A DNA stretch of 64,000 bases. It comes from Prochlorococcus marinus XMU1406 (GTDB lineage Bacteria; Cyanobacteriota; Cyanobacteriia; PCC-6307; Cyanobiaceae). Location: positions 558,001 to 622,000 of the forward strand of contig NZ_JAAORG010000001.1 in the NCBI RefSeq assembly GCF_017696055.1. Reading direction: 5' to 3'. The notes under the pieces were generated by a model. It did not search any database. It saw only the letters and a list, made by a program, of their open reading frames with translations, and was not told the origin of the DNA. The position numbers were made by a program, and so were the translations under genes. Positions 9,473 to 49,640 of the stretch are shown here, in pieces (within the stretch, counting starts at the first letter, position 1; every line of letters starts with the position of its first letter).

Positions 9473-10557
9473 TGATAAAGTTTTTAGACAATAAACTTTT
9501 TCGTTATTTATCCGTTTTTTTATTTTTAAATTCTTCAACCCTTCCAATTAAATCTTCAAGTGCTCTTGCTGCATGGGCTATAAATACTAATGGGGTTTTA
9601 GAATTAAGAACTAAATCAAATACAAATTTAAAAGCATACTTTCAGAAGGCTAACCAAATATCGGGAGATAGATTCTGGGTAGATTTTCCAGGAGAATTAA
9701 AAAATCCCAGAAAAATAAAAGGTAATGGCCCAATAAAAGAAATTAGATTAGGTAAACCAGATAAGGGTAAAACAAGACTAGTAATTGAATTTAAGGAAGA
9801 GACTTATTTGAAACCTTTGACTTGGGAAATGGTTGGCTTAGATCAAAATAAATGGAGAATTAAACTATTTAACCCAAAATATGCTTTTAAGAAGATTGGT
9901 GAAGGTTTAGTTGAAAAGAAAAGAGGAAATATTAAAGCAAAGCAAAATTTAATTCATAAGAAGAAAAACAATTATGGTTACTTGAAACTACCAGAGGTAA
10001 GACGAAACAAGTTTGAAGTTGTAATCGATCCAGGGCATGGAGGACCTGATCCAGGAGCGATAGGTATTGGTGGTATTAGAGAAACAGATGTTGTTCTAGA
10101 AGTTTCAAAAATAGTTAAAAATTTACTTTCTAAGAAAGGTGTCAAAGTAAGGTTGACTAGAACAAATGACGTTGATTTGGATTTGCCTCCAAGAGTTTCC
10201 ATTGCTAATAATACGGATGCAGATATCTTTGTAAGTATTCATGCAAATGCCTCAAGAGGTAAAAGAAGAGACATAAATGGATTGGAAACCTTTTATTACA
10301 GAGGGTGGAGAGGAAGATTACTCGCGAAAAGAATTCAAAAACAAATTTTAAGAGTTTCCCCTGGGAGTCCTGATCGAGGGGTTAAACAAGGTCGATTTTT
10401 TGTAATTAAAAATACTAGGATGCCTGCAGTCCTTGTAGAAATTGGATTTTTAACGGGAAGATTAGATGCAAGAAGATTAGAAAAAATAACCCATCGAAAA
10501 AGATTAGCCTATGCAATTGCAAAAGGGATACTCGAATATCTAGATAAAGTAGGGTGA
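9472..10557 (+). CDS. amiC: N-acetylmuramoyl-L-alanine amidase (AMIN + Amidase_3)
   Basis: An exported zinc amidase that cuts the MurNAc-L-Ala bond, needed for separating daughter cells. Seen: an N-terminal hydrophobic signal segment to about residue 34, an AMIN-type beta domain at about 35-135, a Lys-rich linker at 138-182, and the Amidase_3 domain from about 183 to the end. Zinc ligands are apparent: His189 in IDPGHGG, Glu204 in RETDVV and His257 in VSIHANA, with the catalytic Glu in LVEIGFLTG. Starts inside the nitrilase stop codon, and its own stop overlaps the murI GTG start by 4 bp. Symbol given by domain order; cyanobacteria can have several paralogues. Confidence 0.88.
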   Translation: MIKFLDNKLFRYLSVFLFLNSSTLPIKSSSALAAWAINTNGVLELRTKSNTNLKAYFQKANQISGDRFWVDFPGELKNPRKIKGNGPIKEIRLGKPDKGKTRLVIEFKEETYLKPLTWEMVGLDQNKWRIKLFNPKYAFKKIGEGLVEKKRGNIKAKQNLIHKKKNNYGYLKLPEVRRNKFEVVIDPGHGGPDPGAIGIGGIRETDVVLEVSKIVKNLLSKKGVKVRLTRTNDVDLDLPPRVSIANNTDADIFVSIHANASRGKRRDINGLETFYYRGWRGRLLAKRIQKQILRVSPGSPDRGVKQGRFFVIKNTRMPAVLVEIGFLTGRLDARRLEKITHRKRLAYAIAKGILEYLDKVG

Positions 10558-46084: not shown

Positions 46085-46170
46085 TAATCAAATAAAAATT
46101 TATCTTAACAAAGACATACCAAAAAGGCGTTTATATTTTTCTCTTTAACTTAAGCTGCTTTTTATTAGAA

Positions 46171-46230
46171 CGGAGGGGGTGGGATTCGAACCCACGGTGC
46201 CCTTGCAGACACGCTAGTTTTCAAGTCTAG
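46171..46230 (-). pseudogene. 3'-half copy of tRNA-Ser (attachment site, outer left)
   Basis: About 60 bp identical to the anticodon arm, variable arm, T arm and acceptor end of the complete tRNA-Ser at 48493-48579, except for one base in the anticodon stem (TCAAGTCT instead of TCAAGACT). Similarity stops at the anticodon stem, and the 5' half is missing, so it cannot make a tRNA. This is the signature left by an integrating element that uses the tRNA gene as attB. Confidence 0.85.
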
Positions 46231-46266
46231 TGGTTTTTTTGTCATACCAATTAATTTGATAGTCTT

Positions 46267-46300
46267 TAAGGAACAGAGTTCACCGAAAGTTCACCACTTA
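46267..46300. repeat. TAAGGAAC site plus 11-bp-spaced pair TTCACC
   Basis: TAAGGAAC (46267-46274) is followed by TTCACCGAAAG and TTCACCACTTA starting at 46279 and 46290, 11 bp apart. Comparable pairs occur next to each of the other tRNA-Ser copies. They may be arm-type recombinase sites; this is inferred from position. Confidence 0.5.
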
Positions 46301-46367
46301 TAAAATTAGAAGATATTTTTAAATTTCTCAAACCTCCTCTTTGTTATGCAAGTAGCAAGCGTTTGAT

Positions 46368-47087
46368 TTAAAGACCTAATATTTCTTTTTTCTTTTTATT
46401 AAACTCTTCCTCGGTAATTATGCCTTTGTCTTTCAAGTCTGCAAATTTCTTTAACTCATCTGCTTCAGAAAAACTGTTTACTTGAATATTTTTAGGATTT
46501 TTAATTGCATTAAGTTTCATATCGTAATACTTTTTACAGTTTGAATTATATAAATTTGTTTTGCAAAATATTTTTAATTGATTTTTATCTGATGGTACTG
46601 AAGGTAACTCAAGTGCTATTTCTTCAGCTGTTTTCTTTCTGCATTTTCTTTTCTTTTTACCTTTGTTAAATTTATCTTTTTCCCACGTACAAACTTTTTT
46701 CTTAACGACCTTACTTTCATTTTGTTTATTTGATGCAGACACATAAAAATCTGGACAATTAGCTTCCATAGTTTGCTGAATACCTGGTCTTAATGAATTC
46801 ATTCTCATTACAGCTGTAAAACCATCAACTATTCCAGAAGCTATTCCAGAAGCTATTGCTCCTTCTGTAGTTCTTGTTGGAGACCAAGGTGCATAAGGAT
46901 CACCCCTTTGATAAGAAGGAGGAACATTATTCATAACTGAATCACTTATGATTTTTTGAGCTTCAAAAGGATCCATCCCACTACTCATCATCTGACACAT
47001 TTGCATCCCATAACCAAAAGCATTATCTGCCCTAACAGCAGTAGGTAAAGAGAGAGCAGCTAGTAGTGGGAGTAGTAAGCGTTTCAT
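46368..47087 (-). CDS. Exported protein with C-terminal SHOCT domain
   Basis: A 239-aa protein. The N-terminus MKRLLLPLLAALSLPTAVRA is a clear signal peptide. The mature part has MCQMMSSGMDPFEAQ, a Cys/Lys-rich middle (KVVKKKVCTWEKDKF, KKRKCRKKT, FCKTNLYNSNCKKYYD; several cysteines) and a C-terminal SHOCT-like helix pair ELKKFADLKDKGIITEEEFNKKKKEILGL, a short oligomerisation domain. The frame is open to 47102, but the ATG at 47087 sits exactly at the signal peptide and overlaps the previous stop by one base (TAATG), so that start is chosen. Cargo of mini-element 2. Confidence 0.75.
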   Translation of the reverse strand: MKRLLLPLLAALSLPTAVRADNAFGYGMQMCQMMSSGMDPFEAQKIISDSVMNNVPPSYQRGDPYAPWSPTRTTEGAIASGIASGIVDGFTAVMRMNSLRPGIQQTMEANCPDFYVSASNKQNESKVVKKKVCTWEKDKFNKGKKKRKCRKKTAEEIALELPSVPSDKNQLKIFCKTNLYNSNCKKYYDMKLNAIKNPKNIQVNSFSEADELKKFADLKDKGIITEEEFNKKKKEILGL

Positions 47088-47329
47088 TAAAGACCGTAGC
47101 AACCTCTTTTTTTATAGTCTTTTAATGCTCTTTCTTTAACTTCATTGTAAGGAGTCTCATCAAATTCACCTAATTTCCCCAAATCATATTTAAGATCCCA
47201 TTCCGCATCTCTTTGCCTTTGTGTTCTTGAAATCAAAGAATAAATTGCCTCACATTCAACATAGTTGGTGGCATTTGCTGTAGTAGGTAAGGCTATAACT
47301 GCTAATAAAGAAATTAAAAATTTTTTCAC
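47087..47329 (-). CDS. Small exported protein, 80 aa
   Basis: Starts with MKKFLISLLAVIALPTTANA, a signal peptide with cleavage after ANA, much like that of the next gene (LPTAVRA). The mature 60 residues are polar and charged (TNYVECEAIYSLISRTQRQRDAEWDLKYDLGKLGEFDETPYNEVKERALKDYKKRGCYGL) with two cysteines likely to form a disulfide. Start is GTG at 47329. Upstream lies the island-end block shared with the other mini-element. No family recognised. Its stop is fused with the start of the SHOCT gene. Confidence 0.65.
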   Translation of the reverse strand: MKKFLISLLAVIALPTTANATNYVECEAIYSLISRTQRQRDAEWDLKYDLGKLGEFDETPYNEVKERALKDYKKRGCYGL

Positions 47330-47462
47330 AAAAAAAGGAGCTAATTGACCCTTATTGTAGATCGACTGTCAATATTTATTTATACCCGAAATGTACCCGT
47401 TTTGTTCCCTAATATACGGTAACTGAGAGGAACTCTAAGGAACTTACTTAAAATTGAAGAAA

Positions 47463-47484
47463 ATAAAAAACTCCTAAAAGGAGT
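47463..47484 (-). terminator. Terminator next to the tRNA-Ser half copy
   Basis: AACTCCT, loop AAA, AGGAGTT (47468-47484) gives a 7-bp stem; on the minus strand it is followed by a T run. It is a copy of the terminator after the complete tRNA gene, and here it follows a tRNA fragment, so it travelled together with the 3' end. Confidence 0.75.
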
Positions 47485-47511
47485 TGTCTCTTTAGAAGTC
47501 AGTTGTGTAGT

Positions 47512-47570
47512 ACGGAGGGGGTGGGATTCGAACCCACGGTGCCCTTGCAGACACGCTAGTTTTCAAGACT
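47512..47570 (-). pseudogene. 3'-half copy of tRNA-Ser (internal attachment site)
   Basis: About 59 bp identical to the 3' half of the complete tRNA-Ser at 48493-48579, including the anticodon loop, and diverging right after TTTTCAAGACTA. The copy lies between the two mini-elements. It marks the junction created when a second element inserted at the tRNA. Confidence 0.88.
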
Positions 47571-47608
47571 ATAAGATATTAAGTGATAGCAGTCGATTAG
47601 CTAGCATC

Positions 47609-47643
47609 TAAGGAACAAATATGACCGAAATATACCCGTTTTT
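47609..47643. repeat. TAAGGAAC site plus TGACCG/TACCCG pair
   Basis: TAAGGAAC (47609-47616) followed by TGACCGAAATA (47622) and TACCCGTT (47633), 11 bp apart. It is placed 39 bp after the internal tRNA copy, the same place as the TTCACC pair after the outer copy. Together they are candidate arm-type sites of the left element end. Confidence 0.5.
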
Positions 47644-47677
47644 AAAAGAGATTAATTTATTAATACATACAGGATTT

Positions 47678-47701
47678 TGCAAGTAGTCAGCGTTTCATTT
47701 A
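47678..47701 (-). other. Relic of a signal-peptide start (MKR-LLA)
   Basis: On the minus strand, TAAATGAAACGC is followed by TGACTACTTGCA, which would read M-K-R-stop-L-L-A. It is about 87% like the relic at 46347-46370 (read I-K-R-L-L-L-A-stop) and like the real start of the SHOCT gene (MKRLLLP). It may be a scar of a lost gene beginning. Confidence 0.45.
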
Positions 47702-47729
47702 TATCGACTTGTAATCATGCATTAATACT

Positions 47730-47942
47730 TCATCCCATCCATTCTCTACCGGCATAAAAAAATAAAAAGATTAGATATGGAATCCACAAAACAAATAAAA
47801 CTGGGAGGATACATGAAACTATAAAACCTCCAAAAAGAATCCATAATAAGGTCGCTTTGGTACTATTTTTTCGTTGTTTCTTTTCAGCCCCCTTTCCTGA
47901 TTTTTCGTAACTTTTAAGGTAATTTTTAAAATCGTCCGTCAT
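47730..47942 (-). CDS. Small membrane protein, 70 aa (mini-element 1 cargo)
   Basis: A 70-aa protein with a basic N-terminus (TDDFKNYLKSYEKSGKGAEKKQRKNSTK) and two hydrophobic segments (ATLLWILFGGFIVSCILP and VLFVLWIPYLIFLFFY). The end AGREWMG is soluble. Overlaps the upstream gene by 4 bp (ATGA), so translation is coupled. No family recognised; small membrane proteins are common cargo in integrated elements. Confidence 0.6.
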   Translation of the reverse strand: MTDDFKNYLKSYEKSGKGAEKKQRKNSTKATLLWILFGGFIVSCILPVLFVLWIPYLIFLFFYAGREWMG

Positions 47943-48193
47943 GATATTTCTCTTTTAAAGTTGTAGTAATGAAAAGTTACTCCATTTGCTTGATTATCTT
48001 GGTTTACTACATGGCTAACCATTTCCCATCCATCAGCACCAAGCCTTGAAAACATTTCAGGCAAAGTAGGAACTTCAGTATTATCACCCCACGCCCTAAT
48101 TCTTTCACCATCAATATCTAGTATATTTATTTCTTGAGTAATACCTCTTCCTTTGTAATCTAAGCGAATGTGTTTGTATTCAAAGCCTTTCAT
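47939..48193 (-). CDS. Small DUF4177-like protein (mini-element 1 cargo)
   Basis: An 84-aa soluble protein. The pattern FEYKHIRLD (strand), MFSRLGADGWEMVSHVV (helix-turn-strand with GxxGWE) and a terminal aromatic strand TFHYYNFKRE resembles DUF4177, in which small proteins begin with a W/FEYK strand and contain LNxxGxxGWE. Unknown role. Start ATG at 48193 and the stop overlaps the next gene by 4 bp. The upstream block carries the palindrome ATTGACTGTCAAT (48297-48309). Confidence 0.6.
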   Translation of the reverse strand: MKGFEYKHIRLDYKGRGITQEINILDIDGERIRAWGDNTEVPTLPEMFSRLGADGWEMVSHVVNQDNQANGVTFHYYNFKREIS

Positions 48194-48296
48194 TTCTAAT
48201 TAATTTATTTTTCAAAATTATATACAGAAAATCTAATCGTGACATTTAAGAATAACAGGACGATTATAAAACTGAGCTAATTGCTCCTTATTTTAG

Positions 48297-48309
48297 ATTG
48301 ACTGTCAAT
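48297..48309. promoter_or_regulatory. Perfect palindrome upstream of the DUF4177-like gene
   Basis: ATTGACTGTCAAT is an odd palindrome with a central T. The relative at 47361-47373 upstream of the 80-aa gene has one changed base (ATCGACTGTCAAT). Because it is the same in the promoter regions of two cargo operons, it may be an operator or recombinase site. Confidence 0.45.
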
Positions 48310-48333
48310 TATTTTAAATTCTCTAGTTTACTA

Positions 48334-48383
48334 TGACCGGTTATACCCGTTTTGAAATTTATGACCGAAATATGACCGATTTT
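48334..48383. repeat. Two pairs of short direct repeats at the element end
   Basis: TGACCGG (48334) and TACCCGT (48344) are 10 bp apart; TGACCGAAATA (48362) and TGACCGATTTT (48373) are 11 bp apart, 28 bp further. The same words occur at the other end of this element (47622) and at 47383. These are candidate arm-type integrase sites. Confidence 0.55.
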
Positions 48384-48442
48384 GTTCTCCAATATACGGC
48401 AACTGAGGGGAATTCTAAGGAACTAATCTATTTTCAAGAAAA

Positions 48443-48465
48443 TAAAAAAACTCCTAAAAGGAGTT
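48443..48465 (-). terminator. Terminator of tRNA-Ser
   Basis: AACTCCT (48449-48455), loop AAA, AGGAGTT (48459-48465); on the minus strand it is followed by seven Ts and lies 28 bp after the tRNA 3' end. A copy is at 47463-47484. Confidence 0.8.
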
Positions 48466-48492
48466 GACTCTTTAGAAGTCAGCTATGTAGTA

Positions 48493-48579
48493 CGGAGGGG
48501 GTGGGATTCGAACCCACGGTGCCCTTGCAGACACGCTAGTTTTCAAGACTAGAGCCTTAAACCACTCGACCACCCCTCC
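48493..48579 (-). tRNA. tRNA-Ser (anticodon UGA)
   Basis: An 87-nt class II tRNA on the minus strand. Acceptor 5' strand GGAGGGG pairs with CCCCTCC, followed by discriminator G, as in tRNA-Ser. The anticodon stem CTAGT/ACTAG closes the loop CTTGAAA with anticodon TGA at 48543-48545, the long variable arm is present, and the T arm is GTGGG-TTCGAAT-CCCAC. The CCA end is not encoded. It is the only complete copy here; partial copies flank it on both sides, so it is the attachment target of the island. Confidence 0.95.
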
Positions 48580-48637
48580 AGGCAAAAAATATTTAATTTT
48601 GAGCTTTTTTATTATATCAAAACATGGTTAAATTTTT

Positions 48638-48659
48638 CGGAACTGATCCGGAACTGCAC
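48638..48659. repeat. CGGAACTG pair 11 bp apart
   Basis: CGGAACTGATC (48638) and CGGAACTGCAC (48649). They lie outside the complete tRNA, between it and the 5'-half relic, so they probably belong to an older element end. Same 11-bp spacing as the other pairs but a different word. Confidence 0.45.
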
Positions 48660-48680
48660 GTCAAGTTATCTCCCAAAACG

Positions 48681-48743
48681 TTGGTATAACTAAAAAAAAT
48701 CCAGTTTTCAAGACTAGAGCCTTAACCCACTCGACCACCCCTC
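48681..48743 (-). pseudogene. 5'-half relic of tRNA-Ser with adjacent arm (outer right attachment site)
   Basis: Bases 48703-48743 match the 5' half and anticodon loop of the complete tRNA-Ser over 41 bp with one mismatch (in the D loop), and lack its 3' half. The first base pair of the acceptor is also lost. Before it lies TTGGTATAAC and an A run, the inverse of the arm TTTTTTT-GTCATACCAA that follows the outer left copy. The two half copies would together make one original tRNA gene split by an element. Confidence 0.7.
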
Positions 48744-49334: not shown

Positions 49335-49640
49335 TTTTTAAACTCCGGTTTCGCTTAAGTCCCCGTTCCATGGCTTAAGTCGATTTGCGGCTTGCTATAC
49401 GCAAGTTGAACGTTTTGGTAGCTGTTGCTACAATTTAAGCATAACATTTAAGAAAATTATTTGTCTAGGTCTTTAAAAAATAAACTTAATACTTTAAAAA
49501 ATGAAATAGGCTTCTACTAAAGAAATTTATGTTTTTCTTTATGTGGTTTCATGCAGGTTACATTTTGTTCGTTTTTGAGAAGTATTTTTTATTTAATGAA
49601 CTTTTAAATGTAAAATTCTTAAGATTATAAAATTTGTTTT
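49335..49640. other. Leader and divergent promoter region (306 bp)
   Basis: It lies between the DUF4278 gene (minus) and the 64-aa gene (plus). The part near DUF4278 (49340-49430) is richer in G/C than its surroundings. GCTTAAGT occurs at 49353-49360 and again at 49373-49380, exactly 20 bp apart, and CTTGC-TATAC-GCAAG forms a hairpin at 49391-49405. The remaining part is A/T-rich without visible features. Confidence 0.45.

Follow-up and report, generated by a model that had tools for sequence, protein, structure and literature searches.

Anatomy and occupancy of the tRNA-Ser(UGA) locus

We analyzed a 64,000-nucleotide stretch of the Prochlorococcus marinus XMU1406 genome (1.65 Mb in three contigs), hereafter the window. 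The only tRNA that ARAGORN finds in the window is a tRNA-Ser(UGA) on the minus strand at 48492 to 48580, and Rfam places the same gene at 48493 to 48579, in agreement with an initial annotation made from the sequence alone. The anticodon core of this tRNA (the TTTTCAAG region) occurs four times and splits 2.5 kb into three units, here called A, B, and C (Table 1). The initial annotation had described two units of about 1.0 and 1.3 kb; these are B and A, but four cores delimit three units, and the third is the 165-bp unit C. A repeat finder recovered the two 3'-half copies and the one 5'-half copy of the tRNA that had been described, pairing 46166-46305 with 47508-47647 (140 nt, 79%) and 47395-47571 with 48375-48551 (177 nt, 88%), both of which include 3'-half sequence, and 48703-48743 with 48538-48578 (41 nt, 98%). 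The repeats are longer than the tRNA pieces: they continue past the tRNA 3' end for about 117 bp and, on the other side, past the 3'-half copy for about 75 bp. The leftmost 3'-half copy adjoins the host flank and for that reason is read as the original 3' half, and the complete tRNA is read as rebuilt from a 3' half supplied by B and a 5' half supplied by C. Terminator-like hairpins stand at the right ends of A and B, and the three such sites in the whole window are no excess over shuffled sequence (1.7 +/- 1.4). A glutamine-II riboswitch found by Rfam (49354-49415, minus strand) adjoins the variable site.

Table 1. Coordinates of units, tRNA pieces, arm repeats, genes, and hairpins at the locus
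Feature	Position	Strand	Description
Unit A	46218..47559		1,342 bp core to core; two genes, no recombinase
Unit B	47560..48539		980 bp core to core; two genes, no recombinase
Unit C	48540..48704		165 bp, 5' side of tRNA; no gene; new 5' half, upstream region, one arm
Leftmost 3'-half copy of tRNA-Ser(UGA)	46171..46230	-	read as original 3' half (attachment end)
3'-half copy at the A/B boundary	47512..47571	-	repeat finder
Complete tRNA-Ser(UGA)	48492..48580	-	ARAGORN, Rfam
Rightmost 5'-half copy	48703..48743	-	read as original 5' half
Left arm repeat of A	46277..46295		AGTTCACCGAAAGTTCACC, period 11
Right arm repeat of A	47383..47399		TACCCGAAATGTACCCG; offset -177 from core; word differs from left arm of A
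Left arm repeat of B	47620..47643		TATGACCGAAATATACCCGTTTTT, imperfect
Right arm repeat of B	48360..48379		TATGACCGAAATATGACCGA
Arm repeat of C	48638..48656		CGGAACTGATCCGGAACTG; word shared with the full 5'-side element in G050
A gene 1	46368..47087 (open reading frame to 47102)	-	239-244 aa by start choice; C-terminal SHOCT
A gene 2	47087..47329	-	80 aa; signal-peptide-like start by eye; no family above cut-off
B gene 1	47730..47942	-	70 aa; hydrophobic by eye; no family above cut-off
B gene 2	47939..48193	-	84 aa; sub-threshold DUF4177 and Sp36 matches
Terminator-like hairpin, right end of A	47469..47485	-	27 bp beyond 3'-half copy
Terminator-like hairpin, right end of B	48449..48465	-	27 bp beyond complete tRNA

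The DNA between the outermost cores is an insertion. When it was removed by script, ARAGORN found one intact tRNA-Ser(UGA), and the joined flanks aligned in one piece, over 921 to 930 columns, to five loci that are empty sites (L102, L114, L074, L069, and L064). Three other loci, L109, L099, and the occupied L049, aligned to the joined flanks in more than one piece. The 2.7-kb region was matched somewhere in 199 of 200 genomes of the genus, and 80 stretches were sampled for comparison, mostly best matches and complete genomes, such that the sample is not random. The tally covers the 76 loci with an intact tRNA, the window included, after L043 (no tRNA match) and L041, L101, L110, and L113 (no intact tRNA) were set aside. 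In exclusive classes, 20 loci had a C-size unit only, 8 a 3'-side unit and a C-size unit, 7 a 3'-side unit only, 4 a 5'-side unit of more than 300 bp with a C-size unit, 4 a 5'-side unit only, 3 units on both sides, and 1 units on both sides with a C-size unit. No further half copy was present at the other 29 loci, which are not all empty sites because at some of them other DNA lies next to the tRNA. Altogether, 3'-side units occur at 19 loci, 5'-side units of more than 300 bp at 12, and C-size units at 33. Occupancy differs even between close relatives: the nrdJ flank is 99.1% identical between a locus with an 890-bp unit (L049) and an empty one (L074) and likewise between a locus with a 1.1-kb 5'-side unit (L105) and either of two with no further half copy (L063 or L069). 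The comparison among relatives that had been proposed with the initial annotation thus yields empty sites, single-unit sites, double-unit sites, and sites with full-size integrase-bearing elements.

Repeats at unit ends and recombinase-bearing elements

Most unit ends carry a short word that is repeated at an 11-bp period and at a near-constant distance from the core. A scan of the window for exact repeats of this kind, with at least 7 matched bases and containing CC or GG, returned seven, of which three lie at unit ends within 2.6 kb (46277, 48360, and 48638) and four are spread across the other 61 kb. Positions were then listed for units of at least 300 bp, identical units being counted once (35 of 77 units fell below that size). 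Arms of 3'-side units lie at +59 to +66 on the left and at -177 to -181 on the right, with one at -194. Arms of small 5'-side units lie at +185 to +192 on the left (four units) and at -121 to -127 on the right (six units), and those of the full 5'-side elements in three genomes (G050, G151, and G102) lie at +189 and -70. Where both ends carry exact repeats, the two words are identical or almost identical in 6 of 7 3'-side units and in 7 of 8 5'-side units. The exceptions are A, with TTCACC on the left and TACCC on the right, and L060, in which the left repeat (at +251) is a different sequence.

The match between the two ends of one unit was also scored by permutation, for 3'-side units of 700 to 4,000 bp and 5'-side units of 900 to 1,300 bp only. 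For 21 3'-side units, taken without preselection for exact repeats, similarity between a unit's own ends was 15.5 of 19 versus 13.4 (standard deviation, 0.4) when partners were shuffled. In 20,000 shuffles, 15.5 was never reached, and places shifted inward scored 11.2 to 11.4. For nine small 5'-side units, the corresponding p value was 0.018. We predict that the words are attP arm sites for a recombinase or its partner because of their position, their matching at both ends, and the same layout in integrase-bearing elements. Words spaced by 11 bp were also seen near integrase genes at other sites (L118, L119, L124, L130, and L132), with tRNA-Asn in L124 and tRNA-Pro in L130 and L132, and the related integrases of L118 and L119 sit beside differing words.

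Small units encode no detectable recombinase. Twenty-six recombinase queries (tblastn, E <= 0.01) matched none of the 32 units of 700 to 3,500 bp at this tRNA, A and B included, as the initial annotation had it for A and B. The same queries matched 7 of 10 longer units at tRNA-Ser(UGA), all on the 5' side. Elements of 8.1 to 8.8 kb on the 5' side in G050, G151, and G102 encode a large (405 to 407 aa) and a small (190 to 211 aa) recombinase, and VapE-like, Prim-Pol, and MerR/excisionase-like genes were identified in that of G050. The left arms of these elements are ATTCGGAACT repeats in G050 and ATTCGGAAAC in G151 and G102, and the right arms match. Unit C carries CGGAACTGATCCGGAACTG, and thus C is most simply the residual end of such a 5'-side satellite. 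In G151, two 3'-side units and a full 5'-side element share one tRNA.

Recombinase genes are also found on the 3' side. A 12.5-kb IMG/VR contig (L207), whose nrdJ is of the Prochlorococcus type (92% identical), has a satellite-like element on the 3' side of the tRNA. Beside the tRNA, this element encodes a 381-aa recombinase-like protein (PHROGs integrase, E 6e-10; no Pfam match). It further encodes a 188-aa recombinase, with XerC and integron-integrase matches below cut-off, and a VapE-like protein, and it carries the arm GTGAGCCGAAAGTGAGCC. That arm is also present at the right end of a 1.2-kb unit (L059) and, with one spacer change, at the right end of another unit (L246), both with imperfect left ends. 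In a 46.9-kb viral contig (L208), a tRNA 3' half (59 nt, 98%) stands just past a weak recombinase match (E 5e-7), and what follows its core looks, by eye, like the left end of the L057 unit.

The clearest pairing of a full element with recombinase-free units involves another part of the same gene. G050 has a second element, of 6,120 bp, that uses the 3' end of the tRNA gene; ACGGAGGGGGTG marks its boundaries, and its arms are TCCCAAACACATCCCAAACACA at both ends. The element encodes a 429-aa integrase with sub-threshold matches to PF00589 (26.6 bits) and Phage_int_SAM_3, which we tentatively label P4-type as it groups with integrases such as that of L116, which has Arm-DNA-bind_3. Units of 949 bp in G171 and 1,232 bp in G104 have the same boundary and no recombinase match. 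Their ends resemble those of the 6,120-bp element, at 94% over 106 bp and 90% over 218 bp for G104 and at 79% over 124 bp and 91% over 76 bp for G171. Of the 87 genomes that are at least 90% complete, three contain the exact 21-base arm, namely, G050 (twice), G104 (twice), and G095 (once). A full element and integrase-less units that have common ends at this gene make mobilization of A and B in trans plausible, and as the sublocation and the words are different, the case works for them by analogy and is no proof.

Cargo of the units and competing explanations

Each of A and B carries two minus-strand genes, as initially annotated. Of the protein families assigned at that time, SHOCT was confirmed in A gene 1 (PF09851, E 2.8e-9) and is the sole family above a cut-off among the A and B proteins, whereas DUF4177 in B gene 2 fell below threshold (E 0.027, 15.1 bits against a cut-off of 25). 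PHROGs yielded just unnamed families of the SHOCT tail. Full-length relatives of an A protein were found in Prochlorococcus AG-903-E23 (79%) and HNLC1 (73%), and the 21 relatives on viral contigs cover only the C-terminal part, mostly the SHOCT end. For a wider view, open reading frames of at least 45 aa were called mechanically in units of 700 to 3,500 bp. Thirty-six of the 58 frames were singletons, and 12 formed one cluster joined mostly by the first 20 to 50 residues, a signal-peptide-like start of the MKRLLLPLLAALALPTAVNA type. Cargo of L044 and L100 was similar along the whole length. PADLOC gave no match for 10 cargo proteins, of which the window supplied 4, and Pfam, run on 8 cargo proteins from other units, found TPR in one and DUF6882 in one. 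Export of some products, to which signal-peptide-like starts point (those of A gene 1 and A gene 2 being judged by eye), is likely and is the sole functional hint.

Two short sequences recur with the cargo. A 37-mer that we call promoter-like, although a sigma-70 scan of the window found no more sites than in shuffles, occurs within 3 mismatches in 75 of 87 genomes (reversed control, 0), and at that threshold its only copies in the genome of the window are in A and B (47337-47373 and 48273-48309). Genus-wide, the 37-mer precedes many small genes, and between it and the start codon come a short hairpin-like stretch and then, immediately before the codon, a T run; it is possibly a shared regulatory leader of island genes. 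Older genomic-island work reportedly described a 48-bp Prochlorococcus repeat element, PRE1, to which the 37-mer may or may not correspond. Moreover, a 27-nt repeat (46344-46370, 47064-47090, and 47675-47701) forms the start of the signal-peptide coding sequence and is also found truncated near the left ends of A and B. By eye, the left ends of numerous small 3'-side units in other genomes have it too, which looks as though the repeat served for the exchange of cargo.

Cargo like that of A and B also occurs away from this tRNA. The B cargo is present at 97% in G101 (L041:8920-9551), about 350 bp from a tRNA-Ser(GCU) (9897-9988). There, a 20-nt piece of tRNA-Ser(GCU) (90%) recurs 7.1 kb off, with a 12-bp-period repeat (CGCCACACCTTT) between, and the copy may belong to a related unit at another tRNA. 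The A cargo is present at 81% in G048 (L043:8880-9621). Neither copy has the ends of the tRNA-Ser(UGA) units.

We consider it probable that A and B are non-autonomous integrative elements mobilized in trans by satellite recombinases with matching arms. Each would consist of a few cargo genes between complete-looking attachment ends and would bring along the 3' half of tRNA-Ser(UGA) with its terminator-like hairpin. Integration at the anticodon core rebuilds the tRNA and displaces the old 3' half, as the arrangement and the empty sites show, and serial insertion at the rebuilt tRNA would build the stack. The recombinase might come from a co-resident or incoming satellite with the same arm word, and the words at the ends may be bound by that recombinase or by a partner. 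Stacked insertion, as initially proposed, is supported by the empty sites, the occupancy polymorphism, and the arm architecture. Movement in trans, proposed at the same time, fits the missing recombinase and the arm layout common with full elements, but the part that calls for a helper with the words of A or B has found no candidate.

Several observations weigh against mobilization in trans. The mobility of A and B is drawn from comparing sequences, and no integrase-bearing element with the A or B words (TTCACC, TACCC, and TGACC) was found. Exact scans of viral contigs for three such arm patterns gave no hits, and the L207 recombinase, used as a query against the same kind of contigs, found its own contig alone. 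A helper in the window's own genome was sought and not found at this tRNA: a PF00589 search returned two genes, neither near tRNA-Ser(UGA), and no relative of the 429-aa integrase (E <= 1e-20) was found there, as against 21 of 266 genomes that have one. One of the two genes is a frame of 196 to 198 aa on contig 2 (L136), where the same 20-kb stretch also holds tRNA-Pro(UGG) and a VapE-like gene. The second gene, a 389-aa frame, belongs to a kind present in most genomes searched. Thus, A and B would need an incoming helper. The ends of A carry different words, and A therefore may be a hybrid that has lost its mobility. Furthermore, no clear arm is seen in L057, L079, and L098, and one of the two ends is without an arm in L040, L045, and L072. 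Judged by the same rule, the long 5'-side units L248, L250, and L259, all with recombinase matches, have an exact arm at neither end. Finally, kinship among units inflates the permutation result, and the 5'-side control, with nine units, is weak.

Some of these points suit a different account, in which full-size satellites or prophages lost the recombinase by deletion, decayed to what are now A, B, and C, and are inherited vertically. C is a mere end without a gene, A has two words, some units have no arms, no helper resides at this tRNA in the genome of the window, and a C-size unit at 33 of 76 loci is what an inherited scar would leave. Decay predicts less well that none of 32 units retains a recombinase match, that many keep arms at near-constant places, that open cargo frames mostly differ (36 of 58 being singletons), or that occupancy differs beside flanks that are 99% identical. 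We regard decay as possible but doubtful, with the caveat that it and mobilization in trans are not exclusive, as a unit could be non-autonomous by origin and dead now, and the odds of the two overlap. Homologous recombination between half tRNA copies, with no site-specific integration, could in principle have duplicated the DNA locally, as the 3' half and about 117 bp beyond it stand in tandem copies, and as A and B have in common end sequence, the promoter-like block, and the short repeat at the signal-peptide start. Local duplication is nevertheless highly improbable because the alignment to the five empty sites runs unbroken over the junction and cargo differs from genome to genome; besides the common blocks, the interiors of A and B share no repeat family, and the breakpoints fall at the anticodon core. 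Duplication alone, which the initial annotation had raised as the contrary case, was not borne out, in that most units have near-fixed arm-like repeats and contents that vary by genome.

Alternatively, the tRNA could act as an integron-like depot that gathers small cassettes capturable by several recombinases, the arm word deciding which. The cluster of 12 frames joined by a common start would suit such a depot, as would the restriction of the 37-mer to A and B within the genome of the window and the A and B cargo in G048 and, beside another tRNA, in G101. We think a depot unlikely, however, as no dedicated integrase is tied to the site, the 37-mer is genus-wide with the listed copies mostly elsewhere, and no helper is known for the A or B words. 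A further reading is tentative: in a tRNA-anchored, cassette-like economy, units of about 0.8 to 1.6 kb, each with a few cargo genes between complete attP-type ends, would be moved in trans by several different satellite recombinases, the 11-bp-spaced, element-specific word serving as an address by which a unit is paired with its helper. It might further be, as part of that reading and just as tentatively, that the cargo often consists of secreted proteins behind a common promoter-like and signal-peptide module.

If A and B are indeed mobilized in trans, part of the variable gene content of one of the most abundant phototrophs moves in units that hardly exceed one or two genes in size and have no enzyme of their own. 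Matching arm words would then predict, in a form readable from sequence, which helper moves which unit. G050, set against G171 and G104, offers a natural full element with integrase-less partners for studying how arm sites control recombinase specificity.

Comparison with known systems

Tycheposons, described by Hackl et al. (2023, Cell), are reportedly Prochlorococcus elements that attach at tRNAs and encode tyrosine recombinases. They are quoted at 4 to 200 kb (PMC10872708) and classed among phage satellites (PMC11389934). A, B, and C are likewise inserted at a tRNA in Prochlorococcus, and the full elements at the same tRNA have recombinases and a VapE-like gene, with Prim-Pol in addition in G050. 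Unlike tycheposons, A, B, and C encode neither a recombinase nor replication or satellite hallmark genes, and they measure 0.17 to 1.3 kb against the size range quoted. We conclude that A, B, and C are not tycheposons because they have no recombinase. No title or abstract in the literature check was recognized as describing such units, a check that did not extend to the defining tycheposon paper of Hackl et al. (2023).

Cis-mobilizable elements (CIMEs) are also comparable. As PMC5704250 describes them, CIMEs have no integration or transfer genes, retain attL and attR, accrete in tandem at one site, and are decayed integrative and conjugative elements or integrative and mobilizable elements. 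A, B, and C also lack integration and transfer genes and are stacked at one site. B has cores and arms at both ends, and A has arms of two words. A full element that resembles a parent was found for the G171 and G104 units only, and none has the words of A or B. Here, the neighbors are satellites and arm words vary between units, in which respects the locus differs from CIMEs.

Phage-inducible chromosomal minimalist islands (PICMIs) are very small marine satellites that encode an integrase, AlpA, and a primase (PMC10803314); A, B, and C are very small and marine and encode none of the three. The picocyanobacterial integrase family of PMC10187409 is a different one, located near tRNA-Phe or tRNA-Cys. 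Unlike integron cassettes, the units are bordered by tRNA halves, and they hold no recombinase and hence no integron integrase. Unlike miniature inverted-repeat transposable elements, they have arms in the same orientation at both ends, and the repeat finder lists no inverted pair of unit ends. The 6.1-kb element of G050 resembles A and B in its tRNA gene, in having 11-bp arms at both ends, and in its integrase-less partners of 0.95 and 1.2 kb, but it uses the tRNA 3' end, with a ACGGAGGGGGTG duplicate, rather than the anticodon core, and its word is another. Ultimately, we file units of the A and B type as a variant of non-autonomous integrative elements that resembles, in its working, a CIME or an element dependent on tycheposons.

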